The notes under the pieces: generated by a model
What the model was told of the DNA's origin: nothing
Database searches by the model: none
Seen by the model: only the letters and a program-made list of their open reading frames with translations
Assembly: GCA_019638775.1 (NCBI GenBank)
Contig: JAHBTD010000003.1
Coordinates: 1-64,000, forward strand
Source of the DNA: Fimbriimonadaceae bacterium
Lineage (GTDB): Bacteria > Armatimonadota > Fimbriimonadia > Fimbriimonadales > Fimbriimonadaceae
Reading direction: 5' to 3'
DNA: 64,000 nt
Shown here: piece after piece, positions 37,340 to 40,735 of the stretch
Position numbering within the stretch: position 1 is the stretch's first letter
Layout: each line of letters begins with the position of its first letter
Translations under genes and position numbers: made by a program

Positions 37340-38467
37340 CTATCTCAAGGCTTCGATGTATTTTACGCCTGATCCAGTATTGAATAGAACAGTTTTTTGT
37401 TCTGGCTTTAACCAGCCCATTCTCTGCAGTTTTTGAGCTGCCGCGAGGACCGCTCCCCCTTCGGGCGAGGCGAAGATTCCGGTTATGCGTGACATCTCTT
37501 TGGCGGCAGTAATGGCTTCGTTGTCGGTGACCGTCAGCGCTGTTCCGCCCGACTCCCGAATCAAATCCAGCATGATGAAGTCGCCGATGGCGCGGGGCAC
37601 GCGCAGGCCGGAAGCGACGGTGTGGGCGTTCGGGAACATCTCGGCAAACCGCTCGCCCTTCTCAAAGGCGGTCACGATCGGCGCACACCCTGCCGCCTGC
37701 ACGCTCACCATCTTTGGTCTTTTGCTGCCAATCCAGCCCATCCGCTCCATCTCGTCGAACGCCTTCCACATCCCCACCAGGCCGGTGCCGCCGCCGGTGG
37801 GATAAAGAATCACGTCGGGCAGATTAAAGTCCATTTGCTCGGCAAGCTCATAGCCCATCGTCTTTTTGCCCTCGATGCGGTACGGCTCTTTGAGGGTGCT
37901 GGTGTCGAACCATCCCTCCTCGACTTTGCGCTTGCCGATCTCGGCAGCGCAGTCGGTGATGAGGCCGTCGATCAGTTCCACATGGGCTCCGTGAATCCGG
38001 CACTCGACAATGCAAGCCTCCGGTGTGTCTTTGGGCATGAACACAAACGCTTCGATCCCGGCTTTGGCGGCGTAGGCCGAGAGCGCTCCGCCCGCATTGC
38101 CTGCGCTGGGCACCGCCATCTTCTTCACCCCCAGCTTCTTCGCCATCGAAACCGCCGCACTCATTCCTCGGGCCTTGAAGCTGGCGGTTGGATTCACGCC
38201 TTCATCCTTGACCCACCAGCTTTCTCCCAGTCGCGGCGTGTGGTGGATCGGCGTCATCCCCTCTCCCAGACTGACCGGCTCGCAGTCCGGCATGACCTCC
38301 CGGTACCGCCACATATTGGCTTCTCGCCCTGCCAAGTCCTCTTTGCGAAGGGTGGTTGGAGAGAGGTCGTATTCGACGCGCAGGGTGCGTCCGCATTCGC
38401 AGGTGGTTTGGAGGGTGCGATGGTCGTACTGCTTGCCGCAGAGGTAGCAGGTGAGGCCGGTGATCAT
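37340..38467 (-). CDS. thrC: Threonine synthase
   Basis: A 375-residue PLP enzyme that converts O-phosphohomoserine to threonine. The N-terminus has a zinc-ribbon-like CYLCGKQYD and CECGR region, common in this class. PLP Lys is in NPTASFKARGM; the phosphate-binding GNAGGALSAYAAKAG and the Gly-rich YPTGGGTGLVGMW follow in order. Start ATG 38467 matches the domain start; TAGACT seven bases upstream suggests a leaderless message, and no Shine-Dalgarno is present. It lies in front of the reverse transcriptase gene, 11 bases past that gene's stop. The retron-like locus could therefore read through into thrC, although thrC seems to have its own promoter. Confidence 0.93.
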   Translation of the reverse strand: MITGLTCYLCGKQYDHRTLQTTCECGRTLRVEYDLSPTTLRKEDLAGREANMWRYREVMPDCEPVSLGEGMTPIHHTPRLGESWWVKDEGVNPTASFKARGMSAAVSMAKKLGVKKMAVPSAGNAGGALSAYAAKAGIEAFVFMPKDTPEACIVECRIHGAHVELIDGLITDCAAEIGKRKVEEGWFDTSTLKEPYRIEGKKTMGYELAEQMDFNLPDVILYPTGGGTGLVGMWKAFDEMERMGWIGSKRPKMVSVQAAGCAPIVTAFEKGERFAEMFPNAHTVASGLRVPRAIGDFIMLDLIRESGGTALTVTDNEAITAAKEMSRITGIFASPEGGAVLAAAQKLQRMGWLKPEQKTVLFNTGSGVKYIEALR

Positions 38468-38474
38468 GGGGTGG

Positions 38475-38480
38475 AGTCTA
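38475..38480 (-). promoter_or_regulatory. -10 box TAGACT, probable leaderless start of thrC
   Basis: On the minus strand TAGACT is followed by seven bases (CCACCCC) and ATG 38467. There is no Shine-Dalgarno between them. Confidence 0.5.
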
Positions 38481-39992
38481 CTCTTCAATTTCAACTGACT
38501 CCGCAAGGCTGAGAGCGGGTTCTCGAAGTACTTGCAGTGCCTTTAACTTTGCTGCAATCACCTCATATGTAGTCAAACGCCGGTCTAACCAAACTTGTAA
38601 ATCAGCATCCGTTAGCAGCATCAGATTTTGACCAGGATTCAGTTTTATTGTTTCGAGCGCTTCACTAGTATAACCAGACATTGAAATCAATAAACCCTGA
38701 GTCCCTGCACCAGACCGAGCAAGTTTCATGCTAAATGGGTCGATTAGAAGTGCACCTATCCGTTCGGAGTAGAATTTACATTCAATAAGCACAGCATTTG
38801 AATTAAAAGAGATGGCTCCATCAATTTGCTCAATATTATTCTGCCTTCGAAACTGTCCTGAAACGCCAACAGTGCCATCATCACAAAGCTCGTATATGAA
38901 CTTCTCAAGCGCATAACCTTTAGCGCGATGATCAGTCATATTAGACAGCTCAAGGAAGTTTTGCGCCAAGATATCAAACCGATCCCGCATTCGCTTTGAA
39001 AGGTCAGGCCATAATTCAGAAAGTTGTCTGAAGTACTTTCTATAAACAGGATCCTGCCATCCCCTTACATGCCCGATGTACTGTAGCCTGCCTAGCAACA
39101 CCCACCTAAATTTTGGAATTCTGCCAGAGGGCACATAATGTTTGTTTAAGTGCTTCTCTTCAAAGGTTTTTTGAGCAGATTCTTCTCCATACTTTTGCCA
39201 CGCGTGAATCATTCCCCGCACTTGTCTTATATATTTCCTTCTCACATTGACAAACTTATTCACCGTCAATCCAGTGACACTTTGCCTCTGGCGGCGTTCT
39301 AAGCACCGAGTCTTAAGTCCATTCACAGTAAACCCGTTTCCTGATATTATCTGCTCCAGCGAGTCTGCAACACGTGTACCTTCGTGATCTACAGTTAGTA
39401 GTTGATTAGGGAATTTAGATTGCCAAGTTGAGAAGGTGATATCATCTGCATACCTCGTATAATAAAATCCATGTGATCGGGCGAATTGAATTAAGGCAAT
39501 GTCTAATGAATACGAAATAATATTTGAAAGAATGGGTGACGAAGGAGCCCCTTGAGGAAGAGCGTGGTTCCTAGTACAAATCGTCGCAAGGACTTTAGCG
39601 GTACTCGCTTCCAAATGAAACGGTTTGGATTGAAGAACACCGCAGATTCTCCCAAAATGGATAGAAGGAAAGAAATCTTTTATGTCTATATTTACAATCC
39701 ACTTTTTTCGCGTATGCAGGGCAGCATTCTTCACTGGGCTGCGATTCGATACATAGGCGTAAGCTGAAGTCGTTGGCACATATTTGTCTTCCAAGAATTC
39801 CTTGATTTTACGTTGCACTCCTTTGAGCAATTCGTCTGGCTCATCGATCTGGCGGTATCCTTGGGTGCGCTTTCGTATGTTATATGTCGTATAGCGAGAG
39901 TCGATGTTAGTACGATATGCAACAAATGCTAGCGTTCCTGCCTCATAGCCCCACTCTTCTTCCAGTTGCCACAGACTTGTTATGATTCGCAT
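38478..39992 (-). CDS. Retron-type reverse transcriptase fused to PD-(D/E)xK nuclease
   Basis: A 504-residue protein. Residues 1-320 are a retron-class reverse transcriptase: NAALH (89-93) fits the retron region X motif NAxxH; NIDIKDFF carries motif A Asp103; LPQGAPSSP is motif B (145-153); YYTRYADDITF holds the YADD at 181-184; QSVTGLTVN has the VTG of region Y (239-241). Residues 355-470 look like an Mrr-type restriction nuclease: GYALEKFIYEL, then QIDGAISF (D391) and VLIECKF (E404, K406), ending GLLISMSGYTSEA. A structured region sits 11 bases upstream. The gene is AT-richer than its neighbours, as in transferred DNA. Not a group II intron RT: no maturase/HNH. Known retrons act in phage defence; this fusion I cannot match to a named type. 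Confidence 0.9.
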   Translation of the reverse strand: MRIITSLWQLEEEWGYEAGTLAFVAYRTNIDSRYTTYNIRKRTQGYRQIDEPDELLKGVQRKIKEFLEDKYVPTTSAYAYVSNRSPVKNAALHTRKKWIVNIDIKDFFPSIHFGRICGVLQSKPFHLEASTAKVLATICTRNHALPQGAPSSPILSNIISYSLDIALIQFARSHGFYYTRYADDITFSTWQSKFPNQLLTVDHEGTRVADSLEQIISGNGFTVNGLKTRCLERRQRQSVTGLTVNKFVNVRRKYIRQVRGMIHAWQKYGEESAQKTFEEKHLNKHYVPSGRIPKFRWVLLGRLQYIGHVRGWQDPVYRKYFRQLSELWPDLSKRMRDRFDILAQNFLELSNMTDHRAKGYALEKFIYELCDDGTVGVSGQFRRQNNIEQIDGAISFNSNAVLIECKFYSERIGALLIDPFSMKLARSGAGTQGLLISMSGYTSEALETIKLNPGQNLMLLTDADLQVWLDRRLTTYEVIAAKLKALQVLREPALSLAESVEIEE

Positions 39993-40003
39993 ACTGAATT
40001 CAA

Positions 40004-40133
40004 GGCCCCTACTTTCGTTTCCTTACGCGAAGGTAGACAACTGGTAGCTACTGACTACATAGCCGTCGTAGCGCCAGTGTACTGAACACCCTAATCATGC
40101 TGCAGTATCAACAGCAAATTAGAAAGCGGGGCC
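40004..40133 (-). ncRNA. Candidate retron msr-msd RNA with a1/a2 closing stem
   Basis: The 180 bases between ruvC and the reverse transcriptase can fold as expected for a retron RNA. On the minus strand GGCCCC-G-CTTTC (from 40133) pairs with GAAAG-TA-GGGGCC (to 40004), an 11-bp closing stem with a small internal loop. Inside are a short hairpin TGCTG/CAGCA, a long hairpin at 40040-40078 (ACTGG, GCTAC and GAC arms pairing GTC, GTAGC, CCAGT) and a 9-bp hairpin near 40012-40038. The right arm AGGGGCC contains the only Shine-Dalgarno-like sequence before the RT start, so folding may block translation. I cannot name the branching G. Folding was done by eye. Confidence 0.6.
40040..40078 (-). other. 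Long hairpin within the candidate retron RNA
   Basis: A 10-bp helix (ACTGG then GCTAC, against GTAGC then CCAGT with a 1x2 internal loop), capped by a further GAC/GTC step. It is the strongest inner stem in the RT leader and a candidate msd stem. Confidence 0.65.
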
Positions 40134-40171
40134 ATGGCGAAACTACCCGCTCGTCAGGCTTTTTTACAAGC

Positions 40172-40648: not shown

Positions 40649-40681
40649 GGAGCTGCGCTCCTGCTTTGGGTGTGAGGAGTA

Positions 40682-40735
40682 TAGGACCTATTGGCCATAT
40701 ATGTCCTATAGGTTCTGCCTGACCTATAGCCCGAC
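40682..40735. repeat. TAGG-type tandem repeat with 9-nt period
   Basis: Six nonamers (TAGGACCTA, TTGGCCATA, TATGTCCTA, TAGGTTCTG, CCTGACCTA, TAGCCCGAC) in the 106-base mutL-ruvC gap. The family is the same as at 13626. Confidence 0.65.

Follow-up and report, generated by a model that had tools for sequence, protein, structure and literature searches.

The window, which is the whole 64,000-nt stretch of DNA that was analysed, contains an intact open reading frame on the minus strand at 38478-39992, with an ATG start and no internal stop codons. It encodes one chain in which a retron-type reverse transcriptase (RT) is followed by a PD-(D/E)xK nuclease domain, and we refer to it here as RT-Mrr. 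A predicted retron RNA is directly upstream. The features of the locus are as follows.

38478-39992, minus strand: RT-Mrr fusion protein, 504 amino acids, single gene.
39003-39992, minus strand: retron RT part, residues 1-330 (RVT_1, PADLOC RT models, Foldseek).
38481-39002, minus strand: Mrr-type PD-(D/E)xK nuclease part, residues 331-504 (E363, D391, E404, K406).
40001-40136, minus strand: predicted retron noncoding RNA (msr-msd), immediately 5' of the RT start, with an a1/a2 repeat and a conserved hairpin.
40122-40136, minus strand: a1 arm CATGGCCCCGCTTTC, pairs with a2.
40098-40116, minus strand: conserved msr hairpin TGCTGTTGATACTGCAGCA, matched by covariance model R1.
40017-40097, minus strand: predicted msd-containing stretch from the hairpin to a2, assigned by position only.
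40001-40016, minus strand: a2 arm GAAAGTAGGGGCCTTG, with 8 nt between its end and the RT start codon.

The RT-Mrr gene is located between ruvC and thrC. Its G+C content is 43%, compared to 59-60% for these two flanking genes, and its GC3 is 0.40, compared to about 0.74 for ruvC and thrC and about 0.71-0.75 in the neighbours. Because a 43% G+C gene stands between neighbours of 59-60%, base composition suggests that it was probably acquired horizontally. No adjoining partner gene or integrase-like gene was found beside it. We also read five neighbourhoods from the same family. The motA-mutL-ruvC order was kept in two of them, and in all five ruvC was found with neither an RT-Mrr gene nor thrC beside it. 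The likely start of thrC is about 10 nt downstream of the RT-Mrr gene. (The longest thrC-like open reading frame, which starts at a TTG and spans 37340-38506, extends into the end of the RT-Mrr gene, and the true start is probably an ATG at about 38467.) Between ruvC and mutL, Rfam gave a match to Yfr1 (40651-40700, minus strand) that was below the cut-off (E = 0.058) and is probably due to chance.

A first-pass annotation of this DNA had described NAALH, YADD, and VTG motifs in the RT half, and these are at residues 89-93, 181-184, and 239-241. The Pfam RVT_1 domain covers residues 39-243 (E = 2e-19). The top PADLOC models were RT-TIR_XII (E = 7e-119), RT-Protease_XI (3e-116), and RT-Toprim_I-C (6e-104), with all of the matches confined to the RT part and ending at about residue 340. 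In NCBIfam, the best retron model had an E-value of 7e-100, compared to 8e-11 for Drt3a. DRT and group II RT models were far behind the retron models in both collections, and the NCBIfam cut-off for the DRT families (Drt2/3/4) was not reached (best score of 41.9 versus 200 bits). Two RT trees, of 106 and 35 domains, placed the query within the fused-effector retron group, on a long branch. That group includes retron types I-C (Toprim), XI (protease), and XII (TIR), all single-gene systems with C-terminally fused effectors. Retron-Eco2 (9lm3) was the best Foldseek match of the RT model (E = 4e-30), and Retron-Eco2/Ec67 is the closest solved protein in sequence as well as fold. Both the trees and the model thus bear out the proposed placement of this RT among retrons. 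It is the sole RT that Pfam detected in its genome, where it is present in a single copy. A weak Pfam match to Ntox15 (residues 233-291) was below the cut-off and inside the RT, and it was rejected.

For the C-terminal half, the first-pass annotation had named D391, E404, and K406 as residues of a restriction-type nuclease, and all three are present at exactly those positions. A profile search found Mrr_cat at residues 360-468 (E = 3e-5), with 24.5 bits against the Pfam curated cut-off of 21 and 25.3 bits when the domain was searched alone. Mrr_N, the winged-helix DNA-binding part of type IV Mrr, was not matched by Pfam in the whole protein, the N-terminal part of which is RT. Stand-alone Mrr-type proteins encoded in the same phylum and on plasmids align with the final 170 residues, and most of these stand-alone relatives also have the D-ExK motif (QID...ExK).

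The full-length AlphaFold2 model was poor across the nuclease part, and therefore we modelled this domain alone. The resulting model was confident (pLDDT of 85.7, pTM of 0.83), with helices and strands in the order found in PD-(D/E)xK enzymes. The best structures in VIA-align were Nt.BspD6I (Z of 12.3 over 168 residues) and R.BspD6I2 (Z also about 12). The FokI cleavage domain had a Z of 9.8 over 144 residues, and EcoT38I, LlaBIII, AspBHI, and HindIII came next, with Z of about 8. Foldseek returned only weak E-values for the domain, the best of which was 8e-4 (MspJI). Taken together, the Mrr_cat profile, the domain model, and the structural matches confirm, at the level of prediction, a PD-(D/E)xK fold with an E...D...ExK active site. 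This makes the domain a putative nuclease, although a shared fold alone is no proof of activity.

The upstream retron RNA that the first-pass annotation had suggested looking for was found computationally at 40001-40136, a stretch with the predicted layout of a retron msr-msd. Its a1 and a2 arms pair at 14 of 15 positions with one bulge, which 7 of 500 shuffles equalled, and most relatives have stronger pairing. In 15 of the 16 relatives tested, arms with this arrangement were found beyond chance. The spacing from the hairpin to a2 is 81 nt here and 52-127 nt in the relatives. (A longer a1/a2 pairing that reached into the coding region was set aside because its a2 was outside the spacing of the relatives.) The msr hairpin TGCTGTTGATACTGCAGCA recurs upstream of many RTs of the same clade. 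We built a covariance model of it, R1, from 16 relatives, leaving out the RT-Mrr locus. Its single match in the 64-kb window is this hairpin, with an E-value of 0.25 for the whole window and 0.0014 in the 351-nt region. The whole-window value is modest, yet the match is unique and in exactly the right place. At the relatives' loci, including some that were outside model building, R1 also found the hairpin just upstream of the RT. Base pairs of the hairpin stem covary, with 21 cells changed on both sides compared to a shuffle mean of 5.9, with the reservation that candidates had been chosen partly by pairing. The free energy of the whole upstream stretch was mildly below that of shuffles (z of -1.7). 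Between a1 and the hairpin the sequence varies among relatives, with no single G standing out as the branching guanosine, and the upstream RNA was without a match in Rfam.

Two other observations concern this RNA. A likely ribosome-binding stretch of the RT gene, AGGGG, is inside the a2 arm (40001-40016), and so RNA pairing might limit translation too. Also, six cyanobacterial RTs of the clade that have no fused effector (L124-L128 and L133) share this msr hairpin, and their a1/a2 arms closely resemble one another (ATCACTTGCGGG and variants).

Neither genome nor viral contigs yielded a match when scanned with the RT-Mrr protein alone. Therefore, we used an alignment of the clade as the query for a scan of genome contigs and took the best 80 of 530 relatives, ranked by similarity to the RT-Mrr protein. 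Among these best 80 were at least two nearly full-length homologues with the same domain order, in unrelated bacteria. One, in Aliifodinibius salipaludis (L119), aligned over residues 4-482 with 36% identity, and the other, in the metagenome-assembled genome (MAG) RHO3_bin_31 (L120), aligned over residues 21-498 with 35% identity. Homologues of this kind had been called for in the first-pass annotation. Mrr_cat was above its cut-off in both (5.6e-7 in L119 and 2.8e-7 in L120), and both also have the upstream hairpin and a1/a2. E363, D391, E404, and K406 are invariant in an alignment of these two proteins with the query. With the RVT_1 and Mrr_cat matches, this invariance in independent homologues of the same architecture upholds the claim that RT and nuclease are fused in one chain. 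A third relative, in an Actinobacteria MAG (L123), has a more divergent PD-(D/E)xK-like tail in which Mrr_cat was below the cut-off. When it was added to the alignment, E363, E404, and K406 were still invariant and the D column shifted. (L123 adjoins candidate defence genes, PDC-M68B and an AbiO/Nhi-like helicase.) In L130, sister to L120 in the RT trees, a similar C terminus begins and is then lost from the reading frame near the contig end, and this is probably a decayed copy. The query RT is on a long branch, and its grouping with L119 or L120 was not firm. A single origin of the Mrr fusion, for which the AU test gave P = 0.35 with L130 and 0.044 without it, is neither shown nor firmly rejected.

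The fusion appears to be rare because the scan ranked relatives by similarity to the RT-Mrr protein, yet listed few such homologues. A search of 290 further genomes from the same phylum found none. Within the phylum, all matches to the C terminus were stand-alone nucleases, and those to the RT were other RTs. RT-Mrr was also not found among the viral contigs, plasmids, or phages searched; one Pseudomonas luteola plasmid match that extended into the C terminus turned out to be an RT-protease.

Other effectors occupy the C terminus elsewhere in the clade. Among the best 80 of 530 relatives, the tails clustered as Toprim, protease, TIR, and some smaller groups, and the query tail was outside those three. 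Two retron RTs have a C-terminal Schlafen AlbA_2 domain (L122:3893-5473, E = 2e-13; L186:240-2030, E = 1e-20), possibly another undescribed effector fusion. Two more have a histidine-kinase-like domain (Pfam HisKin-conflict; L038:1469-3748 and L153:3863-5398, the latter reaching the contig end). At least six kinds of putative effector are joined to the RT in this clade: Toprim, protease, TIR, Mrr, Schlafen AlbA_2, and histidine-kinase-like. In addition, retron RTs from four Bacteroidota genomes and one viral contig (L101, L173, L175, L191, and L198) have a common C-terminal domain of 116-140 amino acids, for which Pfam gave no match in L173, the one member scanned alone.

The first-pass annotation had stated that retrons mostly use a separate effector gene and that this fusion may be new. 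The first statement is true. However, about 32.8% of 3395 retron RTs carry a fused effector, for example Toprim, protease, or TIR (PMC12405507), so that fusion alone is not unusual. Because fused effectors are common in retrons, the unusual point is the kind of effector rather than the fusion. A Mrr/PD-(D/E)xK effector is unreported in the literature that we searched on fused retron effectors, including the 3395-RT survey; the original type classification was beyond this comparison, and priority is therefore uncertain. Thus, the claim of novelty does not extend to fusion as such, but the Mrr-type fused effector appears to be new.

Sequence comparison and structure prediction support the fusion, the RT clade, the nuclease fold and its active-site residues, the retron RNA, and the foreign base composition. 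We infer the mechanism, from msDNA synthesis to abortive infection, mainly by analogy with Retron-Eco2, the closest studied relative. In that retron, RT-Toprim and msDNA form an autoinhibited complex, Toprim acts as a toxic RNase once freed, and escape mutations map to the phage nuclease gene denB (PMC12405507). More generally, retron complexes hold a toxin back until a phage factor acts (PMC12548924). In RT-Mrr, the RNA at 40001-40136 would be both template and primer, from which the RT part would make RNA-linked single-stranded DNA (msDNA). The RT-msDNA complex would keep the C-terminal nuclease of the same chain inactive, as the first-pass annotation had suggested, until a phage damaged, modified, or removed the msDNA. 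The freed nuclease would probably act as a dimer because related cleavage domains do so, and it would cut DNA, stopping both phage replication and the infected cell. We consider it likely that this is a single-gene retron in which msDNA restrains the Mrr-type nuclease of its own chain until phage tampering frees it. If so, it is probably a self-contained antiphage kill switch.

The target of the Mrr domain cannot be taken from Retron-Eco2, because Eco2 cuts RNA and not DNA. A retron of otherwise the same design might have a Mrr-type domain that cuts RNA, such as tRNA or mRNA, just as the effector of Eco2, the nearest fused retron that has been studied, is an RNase (PMC12405507). The PD-(D/E)xK CRISPR-signalling effectors Can2 and Cdn1 were among the weaker matches, which would fit. 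However, the domains nearest in fold (Nt.BspD6I and FokI) are nicking and restriction domains that act on DNA, and Mrr_cat is a family of DNA endonucleases. This makes an RNA target unlikely. We give still less credence to a nuclease that trims or processes its own msDNA or RNA, or that serves mobility of the element, rather than being a toxin. The foreign base composition and the position of the gene would fit a mobile element too, but no integrase-like gene adjoins it and the RT is single copy in its genome, and in sister retrons the Toprim, protease, and TIR domains at the same position are effectors and not processing enzymes. Finally, a related defence RT (DRT-like) or a decaying copy in place of a working retron RT might account for the long branch and for the absence of the fusion from the 290 other genomes of the phylum, but it is highly improbable with every RT motif and nuclease residue intact, retron models far ahead of Drt3a, and the msr hairpin and a1/a2 present.

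A published classification divides retrons into 13 types on the basis of effector and operon (PMC12548924). A single-gene retron with a DNA-cutting Mrr domain might constitute a further type, with one gene and one RNA, and with the integrity of the msDNA controlling a FokI/Mrr-like domain that is part of the same chain and cuts DNA; we lean slightly toward this reading. It would add a restriction-type nuclease to the effectors wired to retrons. Only for a small number of retrons is it known in detail how RT-msDNA restrains a fused effector. A one-chain retron that is compact, has a DNA-cutting domain, and has mapped catalytic residues and RNA makes it possible to ask if one sensing mechanism serves differing effectors through exchange of the C terminus.

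All the defining features with a clear result (RT clade, NAxxH/YADD/VTG motifs, and the adjacent predicted msr-msd RNA) identify the RT-Mrr locus as a retron, as judged from its sequence. Its RT is of the I-C/XI/XII group, but because its effector domain differs (Mrr_cat and not Toprim, protease, or TIR) we place it outside those three types. Retron-Eco2 (Ec67, type I-C) is likewise one chain with RT followed by a C-terminal nucleic acid-cutting effector, and it has an upstream retron RNA. However, its effector is a Toprim RNase rather than PD-(D/E)xK, and identity between the two RT parts is about 35%. Types XI (RT-trypsin-like protease) and XII (RT-TIR) provided the top-scoring RT models and are in the same region of the RT tree, several of them with the same msr hairpin, but their effectors are a protease or TIR, and the model matches end with the RT. 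Stand-alone Mrr-type endonucleases (PF04471) align with the C-terminal 170 amino acids of RT-Mrr along most of their length, but they have other N-terminal parts, without RT. The Nt.BspD6I and FokI cleavage domains have a fold in common with the nuclease part at 10-16% identity, but they are joined to sequence-specific DNA-binding domains and not to an RT. The homologues in A. salipaludis and RHO3_bin_31 share the domain order, catalytic residues, hairpin, and a1/a2 with the query at 35-36% identity, in different hosts.
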